Assembly (NCBI RefSeq): GCF_003544875.1
Contig: NZ_CP032094.1
Coordinates: 1,364,001-1,428,000, forward strand
Source of the DNA: Vibrio alfacsensis
Lineage (GTDB): Bacteria; Pseudomonadota; Gammaproteobacteria; Enterobacterales; Vibrionaceae
Reading direction: 5' to 3'
DNA: 64,000 nt
In this document: positions 4,257 through 61,363 of the stretch, one piece after another
Layout of the letters: each line of letters starts with the position of its first letter
Numbering within the stretch: position 1 is the stretch's first letter
The notes under the pieces: model-generated
Database searches by the model: none
What the model was told of the DNA's origin: nothing
What the model saw: only the letters and a program-made list of their open reading frames with translations
Program-made: the position numbers and the translations under genes

Positions 4257-5482
4257 TTAAGGGTAATGTTTAGGTTGGTCTATGTGTCGGTCATGCCTTA
4301 GCTCTCGATATTTGTTGCCAAACAGTAAAACAACACCTACCGAAGCCGTCATCGCCGCCACTAAAGGGATATAATTCATGCCTAATGATGCGGTCACCAA
4401 AGAGTTAACAACGCCAGACAGAAAGTTCCCACTTCCGGCTATGGCCATAAAGATGGTTAACGCCATTGATTTAGAACATTCACCGGAAAGCTGCGCGGCC
4501 TGAATTTGAGAACTGGCCATCATAAAAGGCCAAGTACAACGATTAAAAAACACCATGCAAAGCACAATGAACATAAGGCCTGCGCTGTAATAAAATGCAC
4601 AGTAAGCAAGCACAATGAACACCATCGCTTTCACAGCACTTGAACTGATCAATACGTTATCGGCACCAAATCGCTCGGTTAGCTTGCCGACAATGGGATA
4701 AAAACTCAGGGCGATGATGCCGCTCACACTCACAACGGCGCTGGAATGTTCAGGGGCAATTTGGAATACTTCTCGCATCAACACAGGGAACGGCAAAAAT
4801 AGAATTTGGGCAGCAAAACAGAGCAGTCCCCAGCCAAGTGCCATGATGCCAAAAGGAGATAACACCAGCTTTCTCACTTGTTGCGATTGCTGCTCCGGAC
4901 TGCGTTTTCGAATAAAGATTTGTTAAAATCTGGTACCAATACCAAGGCAAGTAGACTGGTGACGATCATCACCATGCTTGCCCCCACAAAACCGACCGCA
5001 GGAGCATCGATTCTTCCGGCAATACCAAAACCGATCACTTCTCCAATGATAAAAGCAGCAATCAGCATGCCGGTTCGGCCATGCCATTCCTTTTCTTCAT
5101 AGCGTCGAACAATCAGCAAATTGAGGATAGAGTACCCTATCGCATAAATAAGCCCCTGCACGAACATATTGATGAACAAGCTCATGACACTTTGTGAGTA
5201 CTGAACAAAAAACGCTAAGCAGGCATTAATAAGAAATAAACCCGACAGCCAAATTTTAGGCGTGCCCCATTTATCAATGTATTTTGAAAACCAAGGACCA
5301 ATCAAAGGCCCTGCAGTCCAAGCGGACATGATCAAACCAATCTTAGCCAGCCCAGAGTCAAAAGAGGCCACAACAAATTGTGGAACCAACATAATGCAGA
5401 ACCCGACGTTAAATGCGCCAAGAACCACCATAAAAAGATACCAAGGTTCAATCTGTCGCCATGATGCTCGTAATGTATCCAT
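4257..5482 (-). CDS. MFS transporter, split by a -1 frameshift
   Basis: Two frames each encode six membrane helices and join at 4874-4877, where TGA of the first overlaps a GTG of the second. Read as one gene with one extra base, the product is 408 residues with 12 helices, the normal size of a major facilitator permease. The break lies in the central cytoplasmic loop at about 4905-4922; adding one A there (minus strand) gives a smooth linker ending SPEQQSQQVRKLVLSP. Codons upstream of the second frame's GTG stay open, which favours one gene over two coupled half-transporters. It lies between the amidohydrolase and the Mpv17-like gene and probably moves the same substrate or product. Substrate unknown. 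Confidence 0.75.
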
Positions 5483-5491
5483 AACGTAAAA

Positions 5492-5514
5492 CGGGAAGGC
5501 ATTTCGCCTTCCCG
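5492..5514 (-). terminator. Intergenic hairpin between amidohydrolase and MFS gene
   Basis: CGGGAAGGC and GCCTTCCCG form a 9-bp stem with a five-base loop. There is no clear T-run on the minus strand, so it may stabilise or attenuate the operon message rather than end it. Confidence 0.5.
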
Positions 5515-5523
5515 CCCCCTACA

Positions 5524-7269
5524 TTAGTTCAAGAAAATGTCATCACCACCAATGACGGTTCCGACAATACGAATATCTTTCAGGGTTTCACGTTTCTCTT
5601 CTGTTGCTTCTTCTGCCAAGACGGTGAAATCGGCCCACTTACCCACTTCGATTGAGCCACGAACGTCTTCTTGGTGTGCAAGCCACGCGTGGTTGTAAGT
5701 GATTACGCGCATTGCTTCCGCAACCGTCAAACATTGATCTTCACCGTATACTTTGCCGCTAAGAGAGCGACGGTTGACCGCACACCAAGCCGAGAACAAT
5801 GGGCTCACTTCCGTCACCATGTCATCCGAATGCACACCATGCATTAAGCCATGATTGGTTGCAGAACGGCATGCATCCATACGTCTCACGCCATGTTCAC
5901 CGACAGTGTATTTCGCGTGCACATCACCCCAGTAGTACAAGTGGTTAGTAAATAGGTTTGGCGTAATACCCACTTGCTTCATGCGGTAAAACTGGTTTTC
6001 TGTCGCTAACTGGCAGTGCTCTAATGAGTGACGGAATCCAAGATTTGGCTTGGTTTTACGAATTTCTTCAATTGCTTGAATCGCGACTTCCGTGGCACCG
6101 TTACCGTTGGTATGAATAGAACAAGACATACCATGAGATTCACCAATAGAAATCTGTTCAATTAACTTCTCTTTGGACATCAATAGATGACCATTTGGCT
6201 TACCCTCTGTGACGTAGTTTTGACCTGGTAGCAAGTGCGCGGTAAACCCTTGAATTGAACCATCGGTTAACATTTTAAAGTTGCCAACGGATAGGTACGG
6301 ATTTTTCTCATCACGGATTGCGTGCACCGCATCCCAGCCTTGTTTGTCACCGTAAACCCAGCGATCAATTGAAGCAAACCAAGGTTCCATATTAACGCGA
6401 GTATACAAACGGCCTTGCTCTTGTGCTTTTAACCACCCCTCTGCTGCCACATTGCCTGGAGTCAACGGGAAGTTCGTGCCTTTATCTGTCACGCTTGTGC
6501 AACCGTTGATGCGCGCCACTTTGGTTGCTAACTCACCCGCATGAATGATGCCCTCTTCAGAGAAGTCCATTCTTGCTGCGCCTTTAGCAAACGCGAACTG
6601 CATCATCGCAGGCTCCGCAACCGTGCCGTTCACTTGACCATTTTCATAACGGAATAGGTTTGGGTCTTCTTCCATATTCTCGTAACCACATAGCTCAATC
6701 GCGACAGAGTTAATGTTGATGACATGACCAGACGCATGCCCTAAACAGATTGGAAACTCTTTGCTCACTTCATCCAACACATTGCGAGTCACGTCAGCGC
6801 CAGCGAGCAACAATGGGTCAAAGCCCCAACAGTTTAACCACTGTTCACTATCCGATTCCAAACGGGCACGGTCTTTTTCAATCAACGTTTTTAGGTGTTC
6901 TGTCAGTTGCTCAACCGATTGAATACCTTTCATGACTGAGCCATCTGCCGCTTTACGATCCACATAACCCACGTAGTGTGAATCTTTAAGGTATGCACCT
7001 AACACATGTGGATGCATATGATGTTCTGCAAAGCCTGCATAAATGTAGTTTTGCTCAAACATATCGTTGAATTTGGCTTCGATACGATGGGCTGTTAGCA
7101 ATGAACGAATCGTTTCAATTTCACCGACACCGACAATCACACCATTTTGAACCGCAACCGCTTCTGCTTCTGGTTGGTCAGGGTTCATCGTAATCACTTT
7201 CTGTGCTGTAAATACGGTCACTGGTTGTTTTGCATCAATTAGGCGCATGCATAGAGCTTGATAGTTCAT
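5524..7269 (-). CDS. YtcJ-like metal-dependent amidohydrolase
   Basis: A 581-residue member of the amidohydrolase 3 (YtcJ-like) group, enzymes that hydrolyse amide or related bonds in a TIM barrel with one or two metal ions. Visible landmarks: the N-terminal beta-sandwich start (VFTAQKVITMNPDQPEAEAVAV), the HxH metal motif in AEHHMHPHVLG, HTNGNGATEVAIQAIE, HSLEHCQL, and a late metal-binding aspartate region GVHSDDMVTEVSP followed by WADFTVL. No signal peptide, so it is cytoplasmic. ATG at 7269 has AAGAG upstream. It sits between two MFS genes downstream of a porin, which suggests that an imported N-acyl or related compound is cleaved inside the cell. The natural substrate cannot be told from the sequence. 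Confidence 0.85.
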   Translation of the reverse strand: MNYQALCMRLIDAKQPVTVFTAQKVITMNPDQPEAEAVAVQNGVIVGVGEIETIRSLLTAHRIEAKFNDMFEQNYIYAGFAEHHMHPHVLGAYLKDSHYVGYVDRKAADGSVMKGIQSVEQLTEHLKTLIEKDRARLESDSEQWLNCWGFDPLLLAGADVTRNVLDEVSKEFPICLGHASGHVININSVAIELCGYENMEEDPNLFRYENGQVNGTVAEPAMMQFAFAKGAARMDFSEEGIIHAGELATKVARINGCTSVTDKGTNFPLTPGNVAAEGWLKAQEQGRLYTRVNMEPWFASIDRWVYGDKQGWDAVHAIRDEKNPYLSVGNFKMLTDGSIQGFTAHLLPGQNYVTEGKPNGHLLMSKEKLIEQISIGESHGMSCSIHTNGNGATEVAIQAIEEIRKTKPNLGFRHSLEHCQLATENQFYRMKQVGITPNLFTNHLYYWGDVHAKYTVGEHGVRRMDACRSATNHGLMHGVHSDDMVTEVSPLFSAWCAVNRRSLSGKVYGEDQCLTVAEAMRVITYNHAWLAHQEDVRGSIEVGKWADFTVLAEEATEEKRETLKDIRIVGTVIGGDDIFLN

Positions 7270-7367
7270 AAAAATGTCTCTTCTTATTAATTTGTAGGGT
7301 GCGTCCTGCGCTCACTTTGAGAAGTGGGATAGCAAGTAAGTGCAGGACATTTCATTTGAATTTCGTT

Positions 7368-8977
7368 TTATGGTTTTTGGGTCCAACCTTGAGTCGGGAT
7401 GCCCATAAAGCCTGGAATGTGAAGCAGAACGAATAGTGTCAGAGCCCAGAACGCATACTGTGCCGATTCGATACGTACTTCTTTGTAGATAGAAAGTGCC
7501 GCTTCTGCTTGAGGCATATCTGCACCCGCTTGTGTTAGCTTATCGAGAAGCACTTGGTTAGACATAAAGCCATGAACCGGAGTCTCTGCAACATAGGCTT
7601 TCACCACTGGTGCAACATCACTTTGTTCAATGTTGGATTTGTATAGTGACGTCGAGCTGAACAACAGCACTGCACCAATAATCGCAACACCAGCGGCCTG
7701 CCAAACGTTACGAGTTGAACACTGAATACCACCCGACTGCGCTGCATCACGAGGGTTAAGTGCTGAAGCCACAATCATTGCTGATTGAGAAGCGTAACCA
7801 CCTTGACCACAGCCAAGCAGTAGCAAGCCGGCATACATAAACATTGGGTTGAAACCATCTGCTTGAAGCGAGTACGCCATTGAAAGCGCGCCAAGGCAAA
7901 CCGCTGCTGATGACGCCAGTACCACCATACGAGGAGACCAATGGCTGTATTTTTTAGGAATACCAAGAGAGAAAATAATCATTGGTGCAGCCATGGTTGC
8001 CATTGCGACACCCGTTGCGGCGCCACCAAGACCTGCAACCACCATGATCCACGACAGCGTCACGAAAAATGCTGCGCCAAACACCGCAAAGATAAGGCCC
8101 GTTACATACAAACCATTACGAACTTGGCGAGTTTTGATAAACGATTCTGGAATAAGCGCTGCGCCATGTTTTTGCTCAATTTGTTTTTCTACCATCATGG
8201 TCACAATCATGATCGCGATACCCAAGATAGCAAGTGGTAGCGCTGGAGAAATACCCATCACAGTAAACGGAGCCGACATTGGCTCAATTAGGCCCCATTC
8301 AGACACTTTTGAACAACCAATGATAAACGCGAGCAAACCTAATGACGCCATCACCGTGCCCACATAGTCAACACGCATTTGTGCCGGTTTGATGTCTGGA
8401 ATGATTTTCCACGCCGCTAAGAAAACAAGTACAAACCAACCTGACATGGTAGAAAACGCAGCTTGATAACCCGATACATCCATGATGATGCCAGCACCAA
8501 TCGGCATCACAACCGCCGCAACACCCGTAGCTGCGCCGACACCACCAAACGCTACTGCTCGTTCTTTGCCCTCATAGAGAGAGACAATAATGCCTAGCAC
8601 AGATGGAATCATTAACGCGGCACCAAAACCCGTTAGAGAACGAGCGCCCCAAATAAGTACATCCATATTTGGTGAAATAACCGCTAGCGCTTCACCAGCC
8701 GCACACAACGCTGCGCCGGCCATAAACACCTGTTTAAAACCCTTAGCGATACCTAACATGCCGCCAAATACCATCAACGCACCCGCAAGTAGGCTGTACA
8801 CGATATTGGCCAACTGAACCTGGTTCATCGTCGCATTCAGTTGCGAGATAAACTCATTGGTTGACATTGAAAGCACCGAGTTATCGCCCGATGTTCCGAC
8901 CTGTGCGACACAGACCACAAGCAAAGGGAACCACATGGCCATTCCCGATTTATTTTGGTTTTAATTGCTACATCCAT
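7368..8977 (-). CDS. MFS transporter, 14-helix type, start broken by a -1 frameshift
   Basis: A 536-residue permease resembling the drug:H+ antiporter-2 type of major facilitator, with a GARSLTGFGAALMIPS-like segment after helix 3 and about 13-14 hydrophobic helices. The uninterrupted frame begins at an ATG at 8942 with a poor ribosome-binding site. A much better start is the ATG at 8977 (MDVAIKTK), preceded by AAGGAAAAATT; its frame joins the main one if one base is added in one of the two TTTT runs (plus strand) at 8953-8962. I therefore annotate from 8977. It is 19 bases from the porin gene and lies in the same operon, so it is probably the inner-membrane step for the substrate that crosses the porin. 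Confidence 0.8.
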
Positions 8978-8996
8978 AATTTTTCCTTCTAGCAAT

Positions 8997-10061
8997 CTAG
9001 AAATATTGAGGGTATTCAGAGAAGAAGTAGATAATGCCGATTGACCAAGCATCGCCATGGAACAAGCTGTTCTTGGTTGAGTCATGATCAATTCGATATT
9101 CAGAATAGAGGGCGAGCTTTTTATCAAAGTTTTTCACTACGCCAACATTAGAGAATTCTGTCGTGTATGCGTCCGTTTCAGTCGTTAAACGGTTGTAGCC
9201 AACAAAGGCTTTCCAGCTATCAGAAAAGCGGTAGTGTCCAAAAAATTCGATGCCATCGGAATCAACGAGTTCTGAGGCAACGGGTGAGGCGCCAAATTCT
9301 TTTTGATTGTTGTTGCCAAATGTATAGTTTCCACCCAACATCCATTTTTCATTGTTGTAGAATGCCCCGACAATGGTCGCACTGATGGCATCTTCACCCT
9401 TTGCTAACCCATCCGCATTCGCGACTTGGTGAGCGACACCAAATTGAAAACCACCTTGCGCATAACGTAGAGAACCACCATAAGTCGTACCGACGGTGAC
9501 CGTATCAGTAATCGCTTGGTCACTTTGATCACCCGCAATCAAACCAACAAGTATCTTGCCGTCACCAACACCAAATTGGTTATAGTACTTAACCGAATTA
9601 TCAGCTCGACCAAAGCCGCCCACTTCTGATGCTGGGGCAAAGAATGCTCCCGTGGCGGTATCTTTATTGCTGAATACGGTGTCTGAATACATAGCGATGT
9701 CATAAAAAGGAGACCAGACTTTACCCGCTTCAATCGAACCATATTTTGTTCGCATGCCGATGTAACCAAGACGCGTATTGAACTCTTTATCGGTCACATC
9801 ACTAAACGCTAAGGCATATTCCAATTTGCCAAATGCGGTGATGTCGTCATTGATTTTGTTCTCACCCGCCAAGAACAAGCGAGAGGCATTAGAGTTAAAG
9901 CCTAAATCATAGGGACTATCATCAAAATTGTGACTGTATTCAGCAGCAATCCAGCCACCAAATTCCAGTGTTGCCGTATCATGTTTGGCTATCTCAATGG
10001 CTATCGCAGGAGAAGCTAACAAGAAAGCACTAGCAGTAAGCAAAAAGCGATTTGTTTTCAT
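8997..10061 (-). CDS. Gram-negative porin (trimeric general-porin type)
   Basis: A 354-residue outer-membrane porin. It has a cleavable signal (MKTNRFLLTASAFLLASPAIA), then alternating beta-strand sequence such as LEFGGWIAAEYSH, ITAFGKLEYAL and TRLGYIGMRTKYGSIEAGK (the strand-3 signature of OmpC/PhoE-like porins) and a terminal aromatic residue (QYF) used for barrel assembly. AGATAGAAA precedes the ATG at 10061. It is the first gene of the minus-strand cluster and lies back to back with a ToxR-like regulator gene at 10363, an arrangement that suggests local control of the porin, as with ToxR and OmpU. The permeant is unknown; the neighbours suggest an amide-containing or organic compound. Confidence 0.85.
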   Translation of the reverse strand: MKTNRFLLTASAFLLASPAIAIEIAKHDTATLEFGGWIAAEYSHNFDDSPYDLGFNSNASRLFLAGENKINDDITAFGKLEYALAFSDVTDKEFNTRLGYIGMRTKYGSIEAGKVWSPFYDIAMYSDTVFSNKDTATGAFFAPASEVGGFGRADNSVKYYNQFGVGDGKILVGLIAGDQSDQAITDTVTVGTTYGGSLRYAQGGFQFGVAHQVANADGLAKGEDAISATIVGAFYNNEKWMLGGNYTFGNNNQKEFGASPVASELVDSDGIEFFGHYRFSDSWKAFVGYNRLTTETDAYTTEFSNVGVVKNFDKKLALYSEYRIDHDSTKNSLFHGDAWSIGIIYFFSEYPQYF

Positions 10062-10362
10062 TTTCTATCTCCGAAAACAACAAGGTCGTTGGGTACATGC
10101 AGTAACTCAACGATGTAAATGGCATCAAGCCGATGGAGATAGAATGCGATTTCAGTGAATAATAGACCTCAAAAACCTCAATTTGATGTTTTATTCTTTC
10201 AAATGCCATCATATTGGTGAATATATCTAGATAAGAAAGGTATAAATTCTGTTTTTATCAAAAATATCTCAAGACAAAAGTTATTGTGAAGTTTAACAAC
10301 ATAACCAAATCCGTTAGCTCTTAGAATGTCGGGATGCGTAAATTAGATAGGTTGGGCAACGA
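10062..10362. other. Divergent promoter region of porin cluster and sensor genes
   Basis: This 301-base AT-rich region must carry promoters for the porin cluster and for the ToxR-like regulator. I see no gene and no clear palindrome that I can name as an operator. Confidence 0.5.
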
Positions 10363-10991
10363 ATGAATTTAGTTCTGCACAGCGATCATTATCAATTTGA
10401 CGACTTTTGTTATTCTCCGACAGAGGGCGTGATAGTAACCAAAGACAAAAGAATCATCTTAAAAGCTCGTGAAAACGAATTGCTGCACATTTTAATTAAA
10501 CAACACCCATTACCAGCAACACGAGATGCAATTCAACAAGCACTATGGAGCAACTCCTATGCAACTGACTCAACCATTAACCAAGCCATAAAAACATTAA
10601 GAGACGATCTCATTGACAGCGATCGCACGTTAATAAGAACCATCCCAAAAACAGGATACATATTGGGTGCTAGTCCTAAATTTGTTCGATACCAAATGGG
10701 AGCCGCTTCTAAACAAAAGGGCGCTCATATCCAATATTTACCTACTTTTATTTTTGGGCTGATCTTTGGCTTATTTTTTCTTGTTATTGGGTATCAATTT
10801 GGCGCGCCGGAAGTCGTAGGAATAACAGCAACTAATAATCAAACTCATTATCTTTTGAGCCAGACAATATAGAACTCGCTCGATTTAATTCAACCCATTC
10901 AGATAAAGAAGCATTTATTGAAAGAACCGAGCTGGGATATAGACTTTGTGAAATAAATCAGGGAGTAATGTTATGCAAAAACATCATGTAA
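10363..10991 (+). CDS. Membrane-tethered winged-helix regulator, VtrA/ToxR-like, with -1 frameshift near the end
   Basis: Residues 1-105 form an OmpR/ToxR-type winged-helix DNA-binding domain (ILKARENELLHILIKQHP, then a recognition region STINQAIKTLRDDLI and the wing RTIPKTGYIL). A single membrane helix follows at about 126-146, then a short periplasmic part. The first frame stops at 10872, but one added base in the AAA at 10841-10843 or the TTTT at 10853-10856 opens a frame to 10991, giving 209 residues and a periplasmic domain ending GVMLCKNIM. The repaired end overlaps the next gene by 19 bases. That order and overlap, a tethered regulator followed by a small one-helix periplasmic protein, recalls VtrA/VtrC and ToxR/ToxS. 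The sensed signal is unknown; the divergent porin operon is the likely target. Confidence 0.7.
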
Positions 10992-11452
10992 TTACGAGCA
11001 TCACATTATTTGTCACTGCATTCGTATTTTTCTGGGCTGGGTATGAGCTACATAATAAACTGAACTTACCACTGCGAAGTATCGCAGGAGTTTGGACCGG
11101 ACATTCAAAATTAGAAACAAAAACGGGTCCGATAAACTACGAAGTCAATGCTCTTATTCAGGCAGAGTCCATCACCCTATCGCTCGTTGCGCAGGCACAG
11201 GATAACGCGAAATTTGCATTTCGACTTGATCTCAAATACGTGGAACACACAGGAAGTGAGTATCTATTTACCGTCAGAGATCGCACAACAACTTGGCTAG
11301 AGCAAATTCGTTCGCAAGAAAAATTGGATATCCCCGTCATTGGGCATTTTCTTTCTGCAACGTTAGTAAAGAAAAATGAGCACCAAGTTTTCTTTGTATT
11401 TGATCTAGGAAAAGAATACGCATTCGGCACATTGTTTGAAAAAGGGATTTAG
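10973..11452 (+). CDS. Small periplasmic membrane protein, ToxS/VtrC-like partner
   Basis: A 159-residue protein with one N-terminal membrane helix (about residues 8-28, TSITLFVTAFVFFWAGYEL) and a periplasmic remainder of alternating polar and hydrophobic strands (IAGVWTGHSKLETKTG, FAFRLDLKYVEHTG, HQVFFVFDLGKEYAFG), which suggests a small beta-barrel. It overlaps the end of the tethered regulator gene in the repaired reading. Position, size and topology match ToxS and VtrC, which bind the periplasmic part of their regulator and in VtrC's case form a bile-binding barrel. I do not see sequence identity strong enough to assign either name; the call rests on topology and context. Its likely role is sensing or stabilisation of the regulator encoded upstream. 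Confidence 0.5.
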   Translation: MQKHHVITSITLFVTAFVFFWAGYELHNKLNLPLRSIAGVWTGHSKLETKTGPINYEVNALIQAESITLSLVAQAQDNAKFAFRLDLKYVEHTGSEYLFTVRDRTTTWLEQIRSQEKLDIPVIGHFLSATLVKKNEHQVFFVFDLGKEYAFGTLFEKGI

Positions 11453-11511
11453 TTGGTTCTAGGGGAAGCTAGACATTCAAGCAATACACGAGTTGCAGTA
11501 AGGAATAGCAC

Positions 11512-12882
11512 GTGTACATGATTAATGGCATCTGTTTTAACAGTGCCGAACAGACAATCAGCTTTAATGAAAAAAGTATTCTACTGAATCCTAAAGCCAA
11601 TCAGTTATTACTGTTTATGGCGCAGAACCCAAACAAAACACTCTCAAGAGAAGAAATTTTAACCTCTGTTTGGAGCCGTGATTTTGTAAGCGATCACTCA
11701 CTAACACAAGCGGTAAGCGACTTAAGAAAAGCCTTGGCAGAACTCGGCTCTGAGCACAAGAAAGTCATTGTCACCCGGCCCAAAGCTGGCTATGTATTGG
11801 AGGCAGATGTCGAATTATGTGACGTTACCTCAACAGTAAGTAATGACTTACCAACGGCGAAAACGCACATCCTCAAACAGTCAAAAATCATGCTTGGCCT
11901 CTTAGTGATGACGTTAATCTCCGCTATTTCTATTGCGGTTTGGTCACTACCCAAGGGCCTTTCAACGCCAAATGTCACGATCGACCCCTACAATATGGTT
12001 TTTGTCACTTTTGAGTCCGAACCTAAATATCAACACTTTGCGTTCAGTCTAAGTGATCTCATCAATTATCGAGTCAACCAACAAGGTCGCTACCGTTCAT
12101 CATTATTGTATGAACAAAGTAGTGAGCTTTCGGAACGCGCCGCTCTCGTCATGTCAGGATTTATTGAAGAACAAGACAACCTACCCGTTTTAACTTTCTA
12201 CATCTATGACAACTTGTCGAATAACAAAGTGTTCGAAAAACAATACTCGTTAGACGACAATGTGATTTCAACCGTCCCTAAAATCATTCTTTCTGATATA
12301 GAAGCTGCACTGGAAGCGCCTTTTGACCATGAAATTATCAGTAAACTAGACCGACAATACCCGAAAGATGCCGCTACCTTTAACTTAATACACAAAGCGC
12401 ATTATGCGTCCAATATTATTACCGTGCGCTCACTCTATTCAGCGATCAAACTTTATGATCAAGTGCTAGCCATTGATCCAACATTGGAAATTGCGGCTGC
12501 CGAACGTTTTATTTCAGCGTCCATTCTCAACTCCATTCAGCCAAACACCATTTCAACAACGGAAATGGAGCTCTTGTTCAATAGCTTAATGGATATCGAT
12601 GATGAGCTTCACGCCCCAATTTATTATGAAGCGCTAGCGATTCACTCTTTTTCACTCGATGATCCAAAGCAAGCAAAAGAGCACCTATCTCGAGCACTTT
12701 CAGTGAGAGAGTCATGGACCAGTAATATCCTTGCTGGGAAAATATCTCAAGCTGAGGGAAAGGATTATCAAGCGGCAACGTCATACAAGCGCGCATATTC
12801 AATGAAACCCGATGAATCAACGCTACGGGTAGTCAATACCTTATTATTCACCACCAATTTAACAGAGTTTGGTGTGCCATAG
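11512..12882 (+). CDS. CadC-like membrane-bound transcriptional regulator with TPR-like periplasmic domain
   Basis: Residues 1-105 make a winged-helix domain of the OmpR/CadC type (LLNPKANQLLLFMAQNPNKTLSREEILTSVW, DHSLTQAVSDLRKAL, wing VTRPKAGYVLEADV). A membrane helix lies at about 123-145, and the remaining 300 residues are periplasmic; the C-terminal half is helical and repeat-like (EHLSRALSVRESW, AATSYKRAYSMKPDE), as in CadC-type regulators. The start is a GTG at 11512 with AAGGA seven bases before it; an ATG two codons on is possible. It follows the ToxR-like/ToxS-like pair and is probably a second sensor for the same neighbourhood. It is followed by a terminator-like hairpin. Signal and targets are unknown. 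Confidence 0.75.
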   Translation: MYMINGICFNSAEQTISFNEKSILLNPKANQLLLFMAQNPNKTLSREEILTSVWSRDFVSDHSLTQAVSDLRKALAELGSEHKKVIVTRPKAGYVLEADVELCDVTSTVSNDLPTAKTHILKQSKIMLGLLVMTLISAISIAVWSLPKGLSTPNVTIDPYNMVFVTFESEPKYQHFAFSLSDLINYRVNQQGRYRSSLLYEQSSELSERAALVMSGFIEEQDNLPVLTFYIYDNLSNNKVFEKQYSLDDNVISTVPKIILSDIEAALEAPFDHEIISKLDRQYPKDAATFNLIHKAHYASNIITVRSLYSAIKLYDQVLAIDPTLEIAAAERFISASILNSIQPNTISTTEMELLFNSLMDIDDELHAPIYYEALAIHSFSLDDPKQAKEHLSRALSVRESWTSNILAGKISQAEGKDYQAATSYKRAYSMKPDESTLRVVNTLLFTTNLTEFGVP

Positions 12883-12944: not shown

Positions 12945-13168
12945 TTGTATTAACGCCTAATCATTAAAATCAATAATCAAAACCAATCAATAGATAAACC
13001 AGTAAAGCGCCCCCTCGCGACTTCCATTCATCATAAAAATACCGGTACGGCTTTTGTCGTTAAACACTTTATAAAACAACCATTTTTCGTTCGATTTTTG
13101 CTAAACCACGTCTCAATTTGCTATGGTTTCATGGATCCATCCAAAAACTCGACGCAAAAGGACGTTTT

Positions 13169-24695: not shown

Positions 24696-24917
24696 GCAGC
24701 AAGACCAAAGCACCGGGAATAGAGATAGAAAAGCGAGGGGGCGATGACTGCCCCTATCAAATCCCTATCAACTGCTATAGTTAAGAAAGTAAATAACAAC
24801 ACTAAGGCAGTATTGAATTCGTTATCATTTCTTAACAACTGAACGTCTTTGAACTTTGAGGAGACTCGTTTCCCTCAACACGATTCTTCGCTGCCTCTTA
24901 TCAGAGAGGTACTGTGC

Positions 24918-26008
24918 ATGCCAAACGTATTACAGTCGATGCGCCAAGTCTGGATTTGCCTATTACTCTTTCTCTTTAGCTTTGTGAGTACCACCACTTT
25001 TGCCTCTTCGATAAAAGTTGGCACCTACCCTTGTCCACCTTTTGTGATTAGTTCACTCGACAACAAGTTAAATGGCTTAAGCATTGAACTTTGGGAACAC
25101 ATCGCTGACGAAATGAATGTTGAGTTTTCAGTTCAGCATTACCCGCTCAATGAACTGCTCGACGCTATCGAAAAAGAGCAAATTGACATCGGCGTATCTT
25201 GTATTTCGATCACCCCTGATAGAGAACTTTTCGCAGACTTTTCACACTCGTTTTACGAGACACACCTTGCTATTGCCATTAAAAATCAAGGCTATCTCCA
25301 TACATTTCGTTCGATCTTTTCTAACGGGGATTATGGTTGCTTGTCGGCGGAATATTACTAATTGCTGGATTACTTGGCGCTTTCTTTTACAACTTAGAGC
25401 AAGGGAATAATGACAAGCTCTACTCAATGCAAAGTCGATTAGGACGTTGGGTGGAGAGCTTTATCTTAGGGCTACTGTTCATCACTCGCGGTCCCTTTAA
25501 TTATTTCGAGTTCAAAACACTAACTGGCCGAGTCATTACGGTTTTCATTGCCGTTTTTAGTACATTGTTTATTGCCAGTATCACTGCAGTTCTAGCAAGT
25601 AAGCTCACGCTCAGTCAGGGATATTCCCAGATAAAAAGCATTAACGATCTTGCCAATGTAAAGGTCGGAACCAAAACCGCTACGACTTCTTCAATACTGC
25701 TCACCAGTTTTGGTATTCGTCATGAAAACTATGACGATATGTCATCTTTACTTGAGGCATTGGATCGAGGCGAAGTGGAAGCCATTGTGGCAGATGATGT
25801 GGTGCTAAAGTATATGATCGGGAATGGTAGAACTTCTGGCCAATACCTTGATTTAGAAGTGCTACCCTACCAACTTGAGAAACAAAACTACGGGTTTATT
25901 CTCACTGAAAACAATACTTATGAAGAAGAGATAAATCGAGCACTTCTCCAGATCAGAGAATCGAGAAAATGGCGAAAAACACTGGTCGATTATTTTGCTG
26001 ATAAATAA
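24918..26008 (+). CDS. Glutamate-receptor-like ligand-gated channel (binding protein-channel fusion), -1 frameshift
   Basis: Joined, the product is 363 residues: a signal peptide (about 10-30), first ligand-binding lobe (SIKVGTYPCPPFVISSLDNKLNGLSIELW; IDIGVSCISITPDRELFADFS), a membrane helix (WLLVGGILLIAGLLGAFFYN), a pore-like segment, a second helix (VITVFIAVFSTLFIASITAVL), and the second lobe (VKVGTKTATTSSILL; GEVEAIVADDVVLKYM). This order matches prokaryotic ionotropic glutamate receptors of the GluR0 kind. The pore region reads FITRGPFNYFEF, without a TVGYGD filter. The break is at 25326-25332 (GGGGATT); one more G or T joins the frames as SNG(G/D)LWLLVGG. Start at ATG 24918 is chosen for its signal peptide. 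Ligand and ion are unknown. Confidence 0.75.
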
Positions 26009-34970: not shown

Positions 34971-35077
34971 CTTAATATCGAGTGATACAAAAATATAGTT
35001 ATTGGATTTTTTACTATTTCCGAAGTTCATCATATTCACTAAATTTAACTCATTACTTCAGTACCAACGAGTTAAAA

Positions 35078-35517
35078 ATGATTACCGAACTAACAAACGT
35101 CAGCCTAATTAATAACAAACTTCAAGCAACAAATAAAAAGAAGTGTTTGAAGAACTAGCACAAATGCTATTTGAGAATAATCGTATCAATAGCAAAGAAG
35201 CATTTTTAAACGACATTGAAATCCGTGAAGCACTAAGCGTCACATCAATGGATGGCATTGCATACCCTCACTCAAAAAGTAAAGCAGTGATTGAGCCTGC
35301 CATCGCCGTTGGAGTAAAGCGTGATGGGATCGAATACAACGATGAAGACGGCATCAAACCAACCGTATTTTTCATGATTGCGTCTCCAGACAATGGCGCG
35401 GATCACCATATTTATGTTCTTCAAGAATTATTCGGAAAATTTAGCGAAGAGTTTATTGAAGATATCCATAACGCAAAAGACGAACATCAAATATTAAATA
35501 TTTTAATTAATTCATAA
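35078..35517 (+). CDS. PTS fructose-type EIIA component, -1 frameshift
   Basis: Joined, a 146-residue EIIA of the fructose/mannitol type, which passes phosphate from HPr to the membrane components. The ATG at 35078 opens MITELTNVSLINNKLQATNKK; adding one A to the A5 at 35135-35139 continues as EVFEELAQMLFENNRINS. The phosphorylated histidine is in MDGIAYPHSKSKAVIEPA. Without the repair the frame stops at 35157 and only a GTG-started remnant is left. The length is then standard. The EIIBC gene follows after 11 bases. Confidence 0.8.
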
Positions 35518-38714: not shown

Positions 38715-38898
38715 ACACATTGTGTCCCATGAAATTATTGTTGCCATATTAGCACCAATTAAATGCCATTTTGTTTATTTTTCTTAGCTTATTATACATC
38801 TATAGTAGCTTCATACACCGGGTAGAGAGACAAATCTCTTTGTATCCAGTCAACAAACAACCAGCATCGCTGTACCGAAAGCGAATGAGGAAAGAGCA

Positions 38899-43273: not shown

Positions 43274-45473
43274 ATGAACGACAAAGTCAAATTCGCCATA
43301 AAAGTAGCGCTTAGCCTGACTCTGGCATATTTGATCCCTTTTGCTCTGGGTTGGCCTCAAGCATCTACCGCAGCAACAACTGTCATGTTGATTGCATCCA
43401 CTGCCAGTCGCCGAGAGTCACTCGCTAAGGGGACATTGCGTGTACTTGGCACCATCGTTGGCGCGGTCATTGGATTATTGTTGGTTGGGATGTTTGCGCA
43501 AGACCGCTTGTTGTACATGCTCAGCGTTTCTATTGTCATTTCATTTATCTTTTATTTTCGCAATGCTTACCAAAAAGACCCTACGTTACTTGCATTAACA
43601 GGCGTCATGGTTTTAATGATGTCCAACGGCGGCGATGCAGAGGGCGCATTTCTTTACGGTGTCGATCGAGCATATATGACCATCTTTGGGGTGGTGCTTT
43701 ATACCTTGGTGGGTACATTTCTGTGGCCGACAAAAACAGAGCAAAACCTTCGTCAAATGGTTGAGCAACTTAACCAAGCGCAACACGCATTATTCAATGC
43801 CATATTGCTAAGCTTTGACCAAAGAACGGACCCTGTGGCTATCTCCCCTCATTCGGAGACAAAAGAAAGCACAAATGATGACGAGGAAAGCATCGACCAA
43901 GACGACAAGGCATCACCATCCATCGATACCTTACTCGCGAACGTATTTGCTGCACAAAATGCGCTTGAACAACGTTTTGCCATGGTCAGTGCCGAATGCA
44001 GCGATGTTTCTGCTTACATCAAAGAGTGGCAGTTAACAGTCCACTTTAATAAGCAAATCACTCAAGAGCTCAGTGTTGCTGCACACAGTCACTTTAGCCA
44101 CCAGCAAGACCGAAGCTGCATCAACAACTTCGAACAAGCCATCGAAGAAATCCAAACTCTCTTCAAAACCTGTCAAGAGGTGTGGGACAACAACGGGCCG
44201 GCTTACCGTGCTCAAGAATTTAACGTCGATTACAGCCAGCAAGCTCTATCGGATGCAACGCATCTAGTAAAAGGCTCAGCGCTGACACTTGGTCACCTAC
44301 TAAAGTTGATGCACCAAAGCTTATCTCGACTAGCAGAGAGTATTAGCTGCATCGATTCTGTGACGAATAACGTATCATTCGAGCAAGCACTCCCGCAGCA
44401 AAAGAGTAAGTTTCTATGGTGGGATGCAGAAAACTTCAAGACGGCCATAAAAACGTTCACCACCTATTGGATTGCTGGGCTTATTTGGATCTACTTTAAC
44501 CCTCCTGGCGGTTACTCATTCGTCACTTTCTCAACCATATTCATGTCATTACTGTCATTTGTGCCCGTTCATCCCTTTGTTCTGCTCATTCTGTTTACGT
44601 TTGGCTTTCTATTTGCGGTGCCATCTTACGTCTTCATATTACCAGGGCTAGAGTTAGGGGCAGAACTCGGGTTATTCATTTTATCTATACTTTTGTGGGC
44701 TTTTATCTGTTCAAAGGCCCTGTGACCATTTTCTATATGATTGGCTTGTTCGTTCTTGGGCTCAATAACGACATGACCTATCACTTTGGCATTCTCATGA
44801 CCATCATGACTCTGTTTTATATGGTGGTATTCATGATCATTTTTGCTCATTACTTCCCGTTTAGTTCTCGCCCAGAACACTTATTCTTAACCTTAAAAGA
44901 GCGCTATTTCCGGCATGTTGGGGCGTTGTTTACCAGCTACCAAGAACAATCGGAATCAAGTTTTAGAAAAGTGAAGCGCTCATTGCACCTTGTAACGCTC
45001 AATGTCTCGTCCAAAAAAATCATGGTTTGGGGATCAAAGATCAATCATAAGCTCTTTGAAAAGACGCCTCCGGAAGCCATTGGGGCATTCACAAAATCAT
45101 GTGATGCACTGAGCAACCACATTAATATTTTAATGGCCACCGAACAAAAGTTGCTCAGCAATCCCCTGATTAAACAGCTACGAGCAAAACACACTGATTC
45201 CATATTACCTCTGATGGCAGGCGCACTTGCCAACCATCAGGGCACTCATGAACTCGATTCCGTGTTCGAACAGTACAGCCTCGATTACCAATCCTTTGAA
45301 AATAAACTGGAAGATTTCTTTCTCGAGTTGGAGTTATCTGACTACGCTTATTCAGATATAGCGGGTTTTATATCTTACTGAATTTAAAACGGAACGTATT
45401 CGAAGCCATCAATCAATGCAAGCAAACCTATGAGGATATCGATTGGGTGAACTTACGTCAGAAGCGGTTTTAA
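43274..45473 (+). CDS. FUSC family (aromatic acid exporter AaeB-like) transporter, two -1 frameshifts
   Basis: Joined, a 733-residue inner-membrane protein with two groups of about six helices (residues 5-150 and 390-520) separated by a long cytoplasmic helical region, as in AaeB and other FUSC proteins that export aromatic carboxylic acids with an HlyD partner. The first frame stops at 44725; one T added to TTTT at 44691-44694 gives LSILFVGFYLFKGPVTIFYM. The second frame stops at 45381; one T added to TTTT at 45366-45369 gives a C-terminus ending VNLRQKRF at 45473. The neighbours (outer-membrane factor, DUF1656, HlyD) complete the pump. Confidence 0.82.
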
Positions 45474-48286: not shown

Positions 48287-48972
48287 ATGGCGATAGGTAA
48301 AAACTCAAGAAAATCAATGAAGAAAATAATTTCTTCTATTTAACGCTAGCCCTCATTGGGCTGCTTATTGGTGGCGCTTTTGTCCAAGTAGTTGGCGAGG
48401 GGGCCATGGAGCACCTTTTGCAAGGCTTTACGATTCTTACTTTCATCGTTTGTATGGCGAGTCTGCGCTTTGATAAGAACTGGTCACGATTTCTTTATAG
48501 CTTACTTGGGACTTGGATCGCCGTCATAGTGATCAAAGCCATTCTCAATATCAAAGAGATGGATGTGGTAATGCTGGTCCTCACGTTTGCCTTTTTCTTC
48601 GGCACGTTTAAATCTATTGCAAGACAAATTCTCTTCACTGGCTACGTCAACACCAACAAGGTAATTGGTTCCGTTGCGCTTTTCTTGTTGCTTGGACTTA
48701 TGTGGGCCATTGCCTATCTCATTCTACTGGAGTTTTCTCCAAACTCTTTTACCGGAATGGAGGCTATTTCTTGGGGACAGAACTTCTCCAATGCCGCGTA
48801 TTTTAGTTTCGTCACCCTAACCACACTTGGTTATGGCGACATCAGCCCAGTGTCGCCTTTAGCGCAAGTCATCGTGTATCTAGAGGCCATTGTAGGTGTG
48901 TTTTATATGGCGATTGTTGTTTCAAGTCTCGTCAGTTCCAACATTGAACATCAGGAAAATAAAAATGGATAA
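48287..48972 (+). CDS. Two-pore-helix potassium-channel-like protein (ion channel family), -1 frameshift
   Basis: Joined, a 228-residue membrane protein. The ATG at 48287 (MAIGKNSRK) joins the main frame if one A is added to AAAA at 48310-48313, giving KINEENNFFYLTLALIGLLIGG; otherwise only a start at 48406 is left and the first helix is lost. Four or five helices precede the pore, where FVTLTTLGYGDISPVSPLAQ is a K+-selective filter (TLGYGD) followed by the last helix. It starts 14 bases after the HlyD gene and overlaps the next gene by eight bases, so it is part of the efflux operon. A role in balancing charge is speculation. Confidence 0.82.
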
Positions 48973-53249: not shown

Positions 53250-53701
53250 GTGGATACATTATTAAGAGACTTCCCGGTCATTACCGAGATTGACGTTGCT
53301 TGGGGAGAAATGGATGCGCTGCAACACGTGAACAACGCGGTGTACTTTCGTTATTTCGAAACCGCGAGATTGGAGTACTTCAAAAAAATTAACCTATTGG
53401 TTGAGATGCAAACCTCACAGATAGGCCCCGTTCTCAGTGAAACACAATGCCGTTATAAACTGCCGGTTACATACCCAGATACACTTTTGATCGGCTCCCG
53501 CGTGATCGATATGCAGGAAGATCGTATTACGATGGAATATCAGTTGCTTAGTAAAAATGGGGTAAAATTGCAACGATCGCAACAGCAACTGGCGTAATGT
53601 TTGATTTCAAGAACAACGTGAAAGCCGCAATTCCTGACCACGTTCGCCAGTCAATTTTAGACTTAGAAAACACCGTGGGCAGTACGCATCATTTGGAATA
53701 A
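53250..53701 (+). CDS. Acyl-CoA thioesterase (YbgC/FadM type), -1 frameshift
   Basis: Joined, a 150-residue hot-dog fold thioesterase. VAWGEMDALQHVNNAVYFRYFETARLEYF holds the family's catalytic Asp and the H-V-N-N motif. The first frame stops at 53597; adding one A to AAAA at 53564-53567 gives GVKIATIATATGVMFDFKNN and an end at 53701, which restores the standard length. GAGAGGGACTAAACA precedes the GTG at 53250. It hydrolyses acyl-CoA thioesters by family; chain length not known. Confidence 0.85.
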
Positions 53702-53911: not shown

Positions 53912-53927
53912 GAATCACGCTCAATGG

Positions 53928-54073
53928 TATGGACTCCCCACCTTAACTGACTGTGTCAACTAAAGTTACAGGTGCAAACCAAAATAGGAGCCCATACCAT
54001 GAATCAATCTAGCACAATCTCAATTGATTTAGCCAAATCCGTTTTTCAAGTTGCGGTCCCTCGCGGTTCGATG
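53928..54073 (+). mobile_element. 5' fragment of an IS110/IS1111-type element
   Basis: It opens with TATGGACTCCCC, the same end as the complete element to the right, and holds the first 25 codons of a transposase (53999-54073, MNQSSTISIDLAKSVFQVAV), cut off where the second element begins at 54074. No right half of this copy remains. Confidence 0.75.
53999..54073 (+). pseudogene. Truncated IS110-type transposase start
   Basis: ATG at 53999 after TAGGAGCCCATACC encodes MNQSSTISIDLAKSVFQVAV, which holds the first acidic residue region of the DEDD (RuvC-like) domain of IS110 transposases. The coding region is interrupted after 25 codons by the next element, and the frame ends at a TAA at 54100. 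Confidence 0.75.
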
Positions 54074-54139
54074 TATGGACTCCCTCCAAGGAGGAGCTAA
54101 AATTTTAGTGCAAACAGAAATTTTAATTGGGAGCCATAC

Positions 54140-55175
54140 ATGAAAAAGTCTACTACTATCGCCATTGATTTAGCAAAAAACTCATTTCAAATTTGTAAGC
54201 TAGTTAGAGATCAAGTTGCCTCTGAAAAGCCTTAAATAACCAAAATTGAAGTCATGGTTACAAAACAACCCTCTTCTCATGTAGTAATGGAAGCTTGTGG
54301 ATCTGCGCATCATTGGGGACGTTTTGCCAAAACTTAGGCCATGATGTCAGTATTATTGCCCCAAAAACGTAACTCCTTTTAGAGCAAACCAAAAGACTGA
54401 TAAAAATGATGCTCTTGCCATCGCAATTGCAGCACGCCAACCTAATGTTCATTCTGTTGGAGTGAAAACTATCGATGCTCAAGCGCTTCAATCGATTGAA
54501 CGCGTTCGGCAACATCTCAATGACCTCATAGTGGCTACCAGTAACATGGTGCGAGGTCTGATTTTAGAGTTTGGTATCGCTATCCCAAAGGGAGTTAGCG
54601 CCTTTAACAAAACCATCCCGCAAATTTTAGAAAATGGCGATAGTGAACTTCCTGATATATTGCGCCCTTATTTACACCATATGTATAACTTGCACCAAGG
54701 GCTTTCAGAACAAAAAGTTCAGATTGAAAAAGAATTGAGTTACTACATCAACCAGCATTCAGAGTGTAAAAAACTACTTGAACTTGAAGGGATTGGCCCT
54801 ATCAATGCTCTCGGCCTCTATTTGGCACTAGGACACACTGGTAGAAATTTCAAAAACGGCCGAGAAGCTTCTGCTTGTATTGGTTTAACACCAAAGCAGT
54901 ACAGTACTGGAGGTGTCACGACTATGCTTGGTATTAGTAAGAAAGTAGCAAACAAAAGGCTGCGTGCAAATCTCATCCAAGGTGCTCTATCCGTTGTCCG
55001 ATTGCTTCAGTATCGAGAGCCTAAAAATGGTAAGGAGACTTGGCTAAAAGCCTTGATAGTGAGAGCTGGCCTAAGAAGAGCTGCTGTCGCGTTAGCGAAT
55101 AAAAGCATACGCACAGCATGGTCTATGCTGATACATGACACTCAGTACTCTACTTCATTTAAACATGCTGCCTAG
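54140..55175 (+). pseudogene. IS110-type transposase, interrupted
   Basis: Joined, about 345 residues, the normal size for IS110-family transposases. The N-terminal RuvC-like part shows TIAIDLAKNSFQICKL, VVMEACGSAHHWGR and TPFRANQKTDKNDALAIAIA; the C-terminal Transposase_20 part shows LELEGIGPINALGLYLALG, then ASACIGLTPKQYSTGG and LRRAAVALANKS. A TAA lies at 54233. Two -1 shifts lie near 54334 (TT) and in the A5 at 54363-54367. The clean C-terminal frame runs from 54462 to 55175. The mix of a stop and shifts means true decay, assembly errors, or both. Confidence 0.8.
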
Positions 55176-55406
55176 CAGCTAAATCTATACTTGCGAAATT
55201 TAGTTACTACCAATAATAAAGAGCGAAAGACAGGTAAGACCGACCTTAAAGAGCCAGCTCATTCTGAAGATATCCAATATCGACTGTTCGGTGTGGCATT
55301 AAGGTGCGAATGCATAAAGGGGCAGAGTTCGCTACTCACAAAGAGCCCGAATATACGCACGCATCCTATCTATCTTTCACTGTTTAAAAATCGGTTGTAA
55401 TTAATT
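55176..55406 (+). ncRNA. Candidate bridge (seek) RNA region of the IS110-type element
   Basis: This 231-base stretch inside the element after the transposase gene has no good open frame. In IS1111-type elements the 3' end encodes the RNA that guides target choice, so this is where it should lie. I have not folded it or found the target-matching loops; it is a positional prediction. Confidence 0.4.
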
Positions 55407-55532
55407 GGGAGTCCATATACAGAATGACGGTTCTCGTTTGGGTACTCGGCCCTACAAAGAGCTCAGAAGTCATTCCGGACGAGCCAAAGCCAGCCATCCG
55501 GAATTTCTCATTTAGACTTCCACCAAAACCAA

Positions 55533-56884: not shown

Positions 56885-57175
56885 CTAACCGACAAACTTG
56901 ATTGGGCGAATATGAGAATATTCGACCCAATCATTTTCTTCTAATGCCGAGATAAAATGAACGATATGTGGGCTTTGTAAGTGTTTCTCCAGTGCCTCTT
57001 GAGATGCCCAAATTTCTTGAAACATGAACAAGCCTTCGATTTGTTCATCCAAGAACAACTCATACTGGCAGCACCCCTCTTCTTCACGTGTTGGCTCTAA
57101 TAAACCGGTCAATAAAGCTGTCACTTGCTCAATGTTATTTGGGTACGCTTTAATTTCTGCAACTAAATGGATCAT
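56885..57175 (-). CDS. Antibiotic biosynthesis monooxygenase-like (YgiN-type) protein
   Basis: A 96-residue protein of the dimeric ferredoxin-like ABM fold: MIHLVAEIKAYPNNIEQVTALLTGLLEPTREEEGCCQYELFLD and LFMFQEIWASQEALEKHLQSPHIVHFI. Family members include quinol monooxygenase YgiN. The catalytic residues vary, so oxygenase activity is not certain. Single gene, divergent from the LysR gene at 57428. Confidence 0.85.
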   Translation of the reverse strand: MIHLVAEIKAYPNNIEQVTALLTGLLEPTREEEGCCQYELFLDEQIEGLFMFQEIWASQEALEKHLQSPHIVHFISALEENDWVEYSHIRPIKFVG

Positions 57176-57427
57176 CGCTCACTCTCTATCTACAAGGTTT
57201 TGGTACCACAACAATTTAAACCCTCAGGGATAGAGAAAAATCGCCCTTAGTTAAAACATCTTCAAAATAAATTTGAAAATAGAGATTCAAACACTTTGAG
57301 TCTCCTCTCGATTGTGACCACATTCCCAAAGCTAGAATCGTTCAAAATCCCTGCCATAATTAAGGTACATTGACATATACAAGACAGATGTGATTTCGCG
57401 CTGCGGTGATTTAAAGTAGGAAAACAT

Positions 57428-58267: not shown

Positions 58268-58372
58268 TTAACCAAATTTATTCCTTAACCTAAGTTCACT
58301 TTATTTTCGGCAAAACAGTTTCAGAAATAATCTCCAGCACTTGTTTATCCTATAAATGTACTGGAGATATCC

Positions 58373-59092
58373 ATGAATAAACTTCGTCTGTTACCCCTCA
58401 CTTTAGCGTGTTTGAGCACTTCTGTTTTCGCTAGTAATGCACAAGTCTATATTGAACAAAACATCGCTTCTAACGCAGCCGACCAAGGCACTTACACAAC
58501 AGAAGCTGGAGCCACGATCAGCACATCAGAAAACGGTCAGGTATACATTGGCTTTGATGATCAAGGTTGGCTCGCTGCAGGTTATGGACATGATTTTCCA
58601 CTTAGTGAATCACTCACTCTTAACTTATATGGTGAATTGGGGAAATGGGAAACTGGTGAAGAGATGCTGTTAGAAGCGACCATCGATTATCAAGTAACCG
58701 ACAACTTCAATCTTTTTGCTGGTTACGGATATAATCGATCTGGTCAAACACTCGAGCAACTTAGTGATACCGCCATTAATACCAACCAACTCATCCTAGG
58801 CACAGGGCTCACTATGGGGAACTGGGCATTAGATTATCAATACACCCATGAAAATCGAGATGGTTCTAACGGAGGCTTTACACACGTGGGAGGTGACTTT
58901 TACTTCAGCCAAGATGCCTATCGTACCAATGAGCACGAGCTCGTGTTGTCGACACAAATCGATAACTGGACACCTTACGTTAAGTACACCTATTTCAATA
59001 CCAATGAGGGTGAATTATCGACTTCCAGCGCCATGAGCAACATCGTTGAAAATGACAGTATTTGGACTATTGGCTTGTCCTACGATTTCTAA
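58373..59092 (+). CDS. Outer-membrane beta-barrel (monomeric porin-like) protein
   Basis: A 239-residue protein with a signal peptide (MNKLRLLPLTLACLSTSVFA) and about 12 strands (GQVYIGFDDQGWLAAGYGHDF; FNLFAGYGYNRSGQ; WALDYQYTHENRD; WTPYVKYTYFNTNEG), ending SIWTIGLSYDF with the terminal Phe of barrel proteins. Size and pattern resemble the KdgM/NanC/OmpG group of acidic-sugar porins, but I cannot assign one. Ribosome site TGGAGATATCC precedes the ATG. It leads into a cluster with a metallo-hydrolase and small secreted proteins. Confidence 0.72.
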   Translation: MNKLRLLPLTLACLSTSVFASNAQVYIEQNIASNAADQGTYTTEAGATISTSENGQVYIGFDDQGWLAAGYGHDFPLSESLTLNLYGELGKWETGEEMLLEATIDYQVTDNFNLFAGYGYNRSGQTLEQLSDTAINTNQLILGTGLTMGNWALDYQYTHENRDGSNGGFTHVGGDFYFSQDAYRTNEHELVLSTQIDNWTPYVKYTYFNTNEGELSTSSAMSNIVENDSIWTIGLSYDF

Positions 59093-59589
59093 TTTTTACA
59101 ACTAACCACTCCAACTTTTGGCAGACGGATTTGCCCATTTCCTATCTCTGACTCATCGCACTCCAAACATCGATAGATAGATAAATATAAGTACCACTAG
59201 GGAAACTCATCTTTTTCAGCCATTCCCTCCCGCCTATGCGTGCTTCACGTGATCACGTCCTCGTCTTTACTCTTATTATTACTGACTATTGGCACCCTCT
59301 ACATAGATGTCTCTCGCCCACCAAACATAGACGAGCGTTTTACTACAAAAATCGAACAAAAGAGAGCGACCAATTGCTAGCTTTCCCAGCATAGCCAGTA
59401 CCTTTGCGCATTTTTACGAATACATAAATTTTATTTATGTTTCAACTAAAGTAAGCATTCTCCATTGTTATCCCTTTGTTCAGCATAATACTCCCATCAA
59501 GCGAACACGGACTCACCCATCGCTTAAAACGCAAAACAGCACGTACCACAAGGATGTGAATTCCTTTTCAAAAACACTGGGACTCACAT

Positions 59590-59723
59590 ATGACAACGAC
59601 ACGAATCATTTCAATCTTGACCCTTTCAACGGTCGCGATACTAGCAGCAACTCATTTCTAGGGCAAACCGACCCAGACATCCAGTTACGGTATTTATACC
59701 AGCAACTTTTATTCAGCCCCTAA
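59590..59723 (+). CDS. Putative small membrane/secreted protein (44 aa), -1 frameshift
   Basis: ATG at 59590 after GGGACTCACAT encodes MTTTRIISILTLSTVAILAA, a signal-like hydrophobic stretch, and stops at 59661. One T added to TTT at 59655-59657 extends it to FLGQTDPDIQLRYLYQQLLFSP and a TAA at 59721-59723, 21 bases before the metallo-hydrolase start. The direction of the shift matches the other breaks in this window. The rest of the 59093-59744 gap shows no gene. Confidence 0.35.
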
Positions 59724-59744
59724 CAAAAAGGGGGAGGAGAACAC

Positions 59745-61363
59745 ATGAAAAATATAGCAAATTGACTGTTATTGCTGGCGCAGCGTTACTGTCGACTTCA
59801 GCAATAGCTAACAACCCATTTGAGCACTATCAATCAGAGAATTCTGCAAGTTTCAGTGGCTATAAACACTTTAATTATGAACAAAATGTCAGCACTGAAG
59901 AATTGCTCAAACAAGGCGGAAAAATTTACTCATCACCAGAAGAGATCCACGCCATTTTACAAGGCGGTTTAAAACACGACATTCAAACAGGTGAGGAGCT
60001 TTGGAAAGAGGGGTTAATGTTCGACGGGATAGAACCAATGGATCACATGGTCACGGCTGCAAACTGGTTTCCAAGAACAGAAGAACTATTACATAACGAA
60101 ATGCGTGTCACATTCATGGGCACATCGCCAATGATTCGTCCTGGACAAGCAAACACCTCGATATATGTTGAGCTAGGCAATGGCGATAATTTTGTCTTCG
60201 ACCTAGGTGAAGCCTCTATCGCGAACTACATTGGAGCAGGTGTTGCACTCAATGAGCTTGATAAAGTGTTTATCACTCACCTGCATGTTGATCACTTCGG
60301 TTCGTTACCATATCTCTATCAATTTGGGGGGTGGAATGGTCGCTGGGAAAAACCACTGACGATTTATGGCCCATCCGGTCGCAACCCTGAAGACGGCACC
60401 CGTCACATGGTTGAGGGAATGTTACAGATGCTTTCATGGCACCAAGATGCATTTGATGTCTTCCCTTCCGGAAATGACATCGAAGTCATTGAATTTGACT
60501 TTAAAGACGACGGAGGGGTGATCTACGACGTTGATGGTGTACAAGTATCACACTGGCGGCGCTCGCATGCTAAAGATGGTGCATCGGCTTATCGCTTAGA
60601 TTGGCAAATCAATGATGATGAAAATTTATGTTTCATCTGGACTGGTGATGGCAGACCGACAGAGCTAGACATCCAATATGGTTCAGGGTGTGACCTTTTC
60701 GTCACAGAAGTACAGACTGAACTGGTCGGCATTGCTTCCATCGTCCAAGGTGTTCCTGCCTTCTTAACGCGCTACACTATCGATACGCATCATACTTCTG
60801 GCTATGCCGCCGGTTGGTTAGCAAACCAAGTTAAACCACGCCTATTTATGACGACCCACATGGAGTTTGACCCGTATTACAACAACGAAACCGTTGCACA
60901 AGTCCGTGAGCATTGGAAAGGCCCTTATCATTTCGGTGCACCAGATATGATTGTGGCAAACATTACTCCTGACAAAGCATGGGTGCGTGAGGGTGTTATT
61001 CCTGACTTCCCAAACAACCGTGCACCTCAGTTTAACTTAAATGATGGTGAAGTTTTCCGAGTTCCAATGCCAAAAAACTCTCGTGCCGATATTCAAGAGC
61101 AAGAGATTCGAGACCTAGAAATTGATGAGTCACTTTACTACCCAGAGGGGTATCATCCGCAGCTTCTAAAAGAGTGGCCACTTGATAGAGATTTAATCGT
61201 TCCTACAGAGGCACTACCTGAGAGCATGAAAAAAGGCATGGGAGAAAAACAACGCATGGTTGATGAGATGCGAGAAGCCCATGGTTTGGAGCCAAGATCG
61301 GTACATCGCAAACGATCTTCTGATCCATATCGTGACAGTCGCGAGGGTAACCTAGAGCAATAG
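59745..61363 (+). CDS. Secreted metallo-beta-lactamase-fold hydrolase, -1 frameshift at the start
   Basis: Joined, a 539-residue enzyme. ATG at 59745 follows GGGGGAGGAGAACAC; adding one A to the A5 at 59748-59752 gives the signal peptide MKKYSKLTVIAGAALLSTSA. Without it the start is lost. The domain has the metal motif HLHVDHFG in FITHLHVDHFGSL, later HWRRSHAKD, WTGDGRPTELD (third metal ligand), HHTSGYAAGWLA and MTTHMEFDP, all suited to a two-zinc site. It resembles RNase Z-like/arylsulfatase-type MBL hydrolases and recalls a protein annotated as GntH in guanitoxin clusters, but I cannot confirm that. It heads a group with two small secreted proteins. Substrate unknown. Confidence 0.78.

Follow-up and report, generated by a model that had tools for sequence, protein, structure and literature searches.

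Frame breaks at short homopolymers in a Vibrio alfacsensis genome are probably assembly errors and not mutations

Ten sites at which genes of Vibrio alfacsensis fall out of frame are, judged by comparison of sequences, very likely mistakes made at short homopolymers when the genome was assembled rather than real mutations, and the living cell almost certainly has the affected genes intact. The sites lie in one stretch of 64,000 bases, here called the window (bases 1364001-1428000 of contig 2; the genome has 4,910,231 bases in 3 contigs). Similar breaks are scattered over chromosome 1, and the rRNA copies of this genome differ from one another in a way that those of a relative do not.

Results

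The nearest named relatives in a search with the window belong to the Harveyi clade (V. owensii, V. harveyi and V. rotiferianus; ~80% DNA identity over 42.7-51 kb). We searched the window by tblastn with proteins from relatives, which covered 57 of the 61 main ORFs listed and 50,584 of 64,000 bases, and counted two collinear matches in different frames as a break. At all ten sites the frame differed from that of the relatives, whose genes read in frame. Two-frame tblastn matches were obtained at seven sites (about 4916, 10854, 25328, 35134, 44680, 45364 and 53562); at the three in start-codon regions (about 8953, 48310 and 59748), the frames and the N-termini of the relatives' proteins were compared by eye. 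An earlier sequence-only reading had placed breaks in homopolymers at these ten sites and had suggested comparing the same genes in other Vibrio genomes. In substance the comparison bore this out, by tblastn at seven sites and by eye at three, but where that reading counted ten or more genes there are nine, because a FUSC-family gene holds two of the sites (Table 1).

Support for the individual sites ranged from one genome (G166, for the 4.9- and 10.85-kb sites among the rows listed) to 22 records for the FUSC-family gene. Some of the records counted share a genome. For the 8.95-kb site, G166 was likewise the only genome among the rows listed. At ~8953 (G166 only) and at 48310 (22 rows), the relatives' proteins start in one frame and the window goes on in another. 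Of the ten sites, 59748 has the weakest support: the relatives' proteins align in frame as far back as residue 2 or 3, so that the start codon alone is out of frame.

Table 1 Genes of the window affected by a change of reading frame.
Gene product	Coordinates	Strand	Frame change	Relatives	Pfam match
MFS transporter, two ORFs	4257..5482	-	~4913-4919	G166, intact 408-aa protein matched in two frames	PF07690 on the 4874-5482 piece
MFS transporter, 524-aa ORF	7368..8962	-	In the first codons	G166, 536-aa protein that begins upstream in the other frame	PF07690
DNA-binding (Trans_reg_C) regulator, shortened	10363..10988	+	~10851-10857	G166, protein of 209 aa	PF00486
Ligand-gated-channel-like protein, two ORFs	24849..26008	+	~25323-25330	7 intact records, some possibly from one genome	PF00060 on the second piece
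PTS EIIA-2 protein, start split from the remainder	35045..35517	+	~35135-35142	9 intact records, some possibly from one genome	PF00359
FUSC-family membrane protein, two frame changes	43274..45470	+	~44677-44683 and ~45361-45371	22 records at each, some from one genome	PF04632 on the first piece
Ion-channel protein	48287..48972	+	Near the start, ~48301-48313	22 rows of 228-237 aa, in frame beyond this point, some from one genome	PF07885
Thioesterase-family protein	53250..53698	+	~53552-53570	8 intact records	PF13279
Metallo-beta-lactamase-fold protein	59745..61363	+	Start codon out of frame	8 of 9 rows reach the start, 538-554 aa, some from one genome	PF00753

No Pfam match was found for the second piece of the FUSC-family gene. 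Leader stretches, antisense ORFs and ORFs in rRNA genes yield false matches, so not every tblastn frame change was accepted as a break. Five further clusters in the window were dismissed, none of them lying within a gene: the one at 13145 lies ahead of where the relatives' proteins start, in a leader stretch, and those at 38724, 44657, 50365 (mixed phases) and 53555 lie on the antisense strand of genes.

The amidohydrolase gene at 5524-7269 had a full match in only one other genome (G166, 84%) among the 227 searched, this one included, and G166 also matches the window at 7368-12824 (77%). The stretch 5524-12824 may be an accessory block.

The phase changed by 2 mod 3 at all ten sites, as expected from a net loss of one base or a gain of two, and no gene with the opposite phase was seen among the window ORFs covered by the relatives' proteins. 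If each site had an even chance of either phase, a full set of ten in one phase would have p = 0.002 (two-sided).

Breaks were also placed by script to intervals of 7-11 bases for 22 cases, seven from the window and 15 from the first of two chromosome 1 samples (see below); the three start sites of the window and the second chromosome 1 sample stand outside this set. A run of four or more identical bases was present inside the interval in 16 of 22 cases (window, 6/7; chromosome 1, 10/15). Random coding intervals from chromosome 1, matched in length, gave 1.3, and 16 was not reached in any of 2000 draws. The placement for zntR fell outside the expected stretch and is less trustworthy. The breaks are thus enriched at homopolymers, and these homopolymers are short: the longest run was 3-5 in the seven placed window intervals and at most 5 in all placed intervals.

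The short runs bear on the possibility that these genes share phase-variable contingency loci or programmed frameshift sites, which the sequence-only reading had kept as a fallback. Three of the ten changes do fall in the first codons, as such a switch might. However, the seven placed window intervals, with no run beyond five, hold no long simple-sequence tract, the corresponding places in relatives read in frame, so that a programmed frameshift is not conserved, the affected genes have no evident theme, and rRNA shows the same kind of defect. The fallback found no support in these data, and we regard such a set of switches as scarcely credible.

The homopolymer length spectrum of the genome resembled those of relatives, with no depletion of long runs against them. 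Since the spectrum is not truncated, the affected runs can be only a small fraction of all runs, and at such an error rate little depletion of long runs would be expected.

The breaks are not confined to the window. We compared two 400-kb stretches of chromosome 1 with 800 kb of G103, a relative whose genome is in two contigs. Aligning G103 proteins to this genome gave 19 raw rows among 289 tested proteins for the first stretch (13 in the phase common in the window, 6 in the other) and 21 among 266 for the second (19 and 2). The rows were filtered by Rule A, which drops those whose first match ends before residue 40, those in rRNA, mirror images and duplicates. Eight of the 40 rows were dropped, leaving 14 + 18 = 32 breaks in 555 tested proteins, 25 in the common phase and 7 in the other. 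The reverse test, on G103, left 3 breaks in 305 + 277 = 582 tested proteins, with 16 of 19 rows dropped by the same rule. The difference in breaks per tested protein (32/555 vs 3/582) is significant (Fisher p about 1e-7). The proposal that every break has the same direction therefore holds for the window, with ten of ten at 2 mod 3, but not for the rest of the genome, where 7 of the 32 chromosome 1 breaks have the other phase.

Rule A is imperfect on both sides: it loses probable true breaks (recF, zntR, prfC and DNA polymerase III chi) and retains probable leader rows (fabR, mutS, a ytjB-like ORF and one unscanned 665-aa ORF). We also judged the rows by hand under Rule B, by which the break had to lie within a stretch matched by an NCBIfam model; 34 of the 38 distinct query proteins were scanned, and the rule was used on the rows of this genome only. 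Twenty-four of the 40 rows stayed, 20 in the common phase and 4 in the other, although in 5 of the 24 (hemX-like, chi, FapD-like, CsgD-like and RND-like) the family match was under the curated cut-off. The rows dropped by Rule B include ftsY, fabR, metF, mutS, an antiporter and a histidine kinase.

Breaks were spaced about 5 kb apart on average in the window (10 in 50.6 kb) and about 18 kb apart on chromosome 1 (32 in 561 kb), where the test was less sensitive. When the window was tested with G103 proteins (36 proteins, 31,158 aligned bases), 4 gene breaks and 1 antisense row were obtained, about 1 per 8 kb, so that its rate exceeds the chromosome 1 rate by a moderate amount at most.

Named genes among the 40 rows include recF, yigZ, cyaA, pssA, mutL, argG (two breaks), pilM, metH, lptG, rlmD, gshA, an RND-like permease, dacB, prfC, serB, ygfZ and argA. 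Two of these, lptG and pssA, are essential genes in E. coli, and the joint loss of argG, argA, serB and metH would be expected to make the strain an auxotroph. In several broken genes protein identity was high on both sides of the break (cyaA, 95/95; metH, 95/95; pssA, 89/89; lptG, 97/98), with no sign of decay in these genes.

Breaks were found in the relative as well. In the region of G103 that matches the window on chromosome 2 (stretches L174-L179), 4 of 70 queries from G156, 2 of 56 from G109 and 2 of 42 from G133 were broken, in mixed phases and at five distinct places. For the queries tested in both regions, breaks in the window and in G103 stood at 4:1 of 35, 2:1 of 27, 2:2 of 24 and 0:0 of 1. 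Because G103 is also broken there, the excess of the window taken alone is modest in this comparison.

These results allow ordinary pseudogenes to be weighed, that is, dispensable genes that this lineage lost recently and independently. Some of the broken genes are accessory transporters and G103 has its few breaks in the same region, as gene loss would predict; the single phase at ten of ten window sites, the placement at homopolymers, the breaks in core genes and the indels in rRNA all speak against it, and we consider this explanation very improbable. Even so, a minority of sites could be real, a few of the ten in the window among them, but as a set the ten very probably are not.

A repeated element was compared with its other copy in the genome. 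The repeat, which we take from its ORF to be an insertion sequence, is present at window 54056-55429 and at contig 2 1220224-1221600. The copies are 98.98% identical, with 7 gap events and 5 mismatches, and the longest open frame is 276 aa in the window copy, while the other copy has frames of 177 and 148 aa.

Copies of rRNA genes within one genome should be nearly identical and so serve as an internal test. Seven sampled 16S and seven sampled 23S copies of this genome (chromosome 1 stretches L196-L215) were aligned with eight of each from G103. The 23S stretches were 3007-3023 nt long here and differed mostly by gaps, against 3021-3024 nt in G103. We counted a change as private when it set a single copy apart from the fourteen remaining rows, with the outer 25 columns excluded. 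For 23S this genome had 29 private deletions and 2 private insertions, and for 16S it had 18 and 2, a total of 47 vs 4, together with 20 private mismatches; G103 had no private deletion, no private insertion and two private mismatches. Gap columns common to 2-7 copies of this genome numbered 25 in 23S and 15 in 16S. The private indels amount to about one per 0.6 kb, a density far above that of the breaks in unique sequence.

The private deletions fell in runs of 1 (15), 2 (11), 3 (14), 4 (6) and 5 (1), although runs at least three bases long make up only a small part of all runs. Deletions relative to the majority were mostly of G (67 of 125 in 23S, 39 of 64 in 16S), whereas the window sites were mostly assigned to A or T in the sequence-only reading; base composition may explain the difference. 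Another measure, run lengths compared with the commonest length after homopolymer compression, was less clean than the private counts. Here it gave 53 shorter and 44 longer runs in 23S, which is nearly even, and 40 and 17 in 16S, against 25 and 9 in 23S and 0 and 6 in 16S of G103; run lengths thus vary more here than in G103, with little direction in 23S.

Ribosomes that work with such rRNA copies do not seem credible to us, whereas a fault of the assembly does. The excess of private rRNA deletions, together with the breaks in lptG, pssA, argG, serB, gshA and mutL, supports the suggestion of the sequence-only reading that homopolymers were under-called in the assembly.

The broken mutL raises the alternative that the strain is a mutator, in which mismatch repair has been lost and polymerase slippage deletes homopolymer bases throughout the genome. 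Such a strain would explain why the breaks sit at homopolymers and why the assembled mutL is itself out of frame. But the MutS frame is open over 891 aa and matches all 840 positions of its family, and polymerase slippage should favour the longest runs, whereas no run in the placed intervals exceeds five. The 47 private rRNA deletions against 4 insertions, with 40 of the 47 in runs of 1-3, would presumably be intolerable to working ribosomes. In addition, lptG and pssA, which are essential in E. coli, are broken too, and cyaA, metH, pssA and lptG show no sign of decay. A mutator thus seems highly improbable, and the break in mutL may be the same artefact as the others.

Discussion

The breaks in the window and on chromosome 1, with the indels of the rRNA copies, are in our judgement not a biological feature of this Vibrio. 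They would arise where the consensus has one base too few at a short homopolymer, or less often is off in the other phase, and the reading frame shifts in consequence. The source is most likely a long-read assembly that was incompletely polished, probably with short reads. We infer polishing with short reads because the errors in rRNA are far denser than the breaks in unique sequence. At any single site the break is probably, by the same reasoning, an error.

The known behaviour of long-read assemblies agrees with this reading. One study states that residual long-read errors are mainly homopolymer indels, that short-read polishing mends unique sequence better than repeats, so that errors stay in repeats afterwards, and that assemblies from long reads only generally lack such a gap between repeats and other sequence (PMC8812927). 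In one nanopore assembly described in another study, false deletions made up the majority of indels, most followed runs of 4-5, and A and T stretches were the commonest among the runs concerned (PMC12007338). Net deletions at short runs, frameshifted genes throughout the genome and an excess in repeats are common to our case and those described there (PMC8812927, PMC12007338). Our case differs from them in that 7 of the 32 Rule A breaks on chromosome 1 have the other phase.

Many apparent pseudogenes in public genomes stem from assembly errors, according to PMC11017572. The genes described here resemble those in seeming broken through assembly alone; the comparison in that study is between nearly identical genomes, while ours was with relatives (PMC11017572).

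The marks of long-read homopolymer error were found together in this genome, namely placement at homopolymers, an excess of deletions, and damage to rRNA genes and to genes that are essential in E. coli. A mutator or a phase-variable set is very unlikely by comparison. Nor do we expect this to be a living Vibrio lineage in which mutL is broken and one-base deletions truly gather in short homopolymers throughout the genome, rRNA copies included; we give that reading almost no credence.

The listed completeness of the genome is 100 and its contamination 0.14, yet it appears to hold many false frameshifts. Assembly errors of this kind can be tested for cheaply, and with no reference, by comparing the rRNA copies of a single genome. 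For V. alfacsensis, counts of pseudogenes, claims of gene loss and inferences based on rRNA would be unsafe when drawn from this assembly, which is a warning for annotation and for genome scans.
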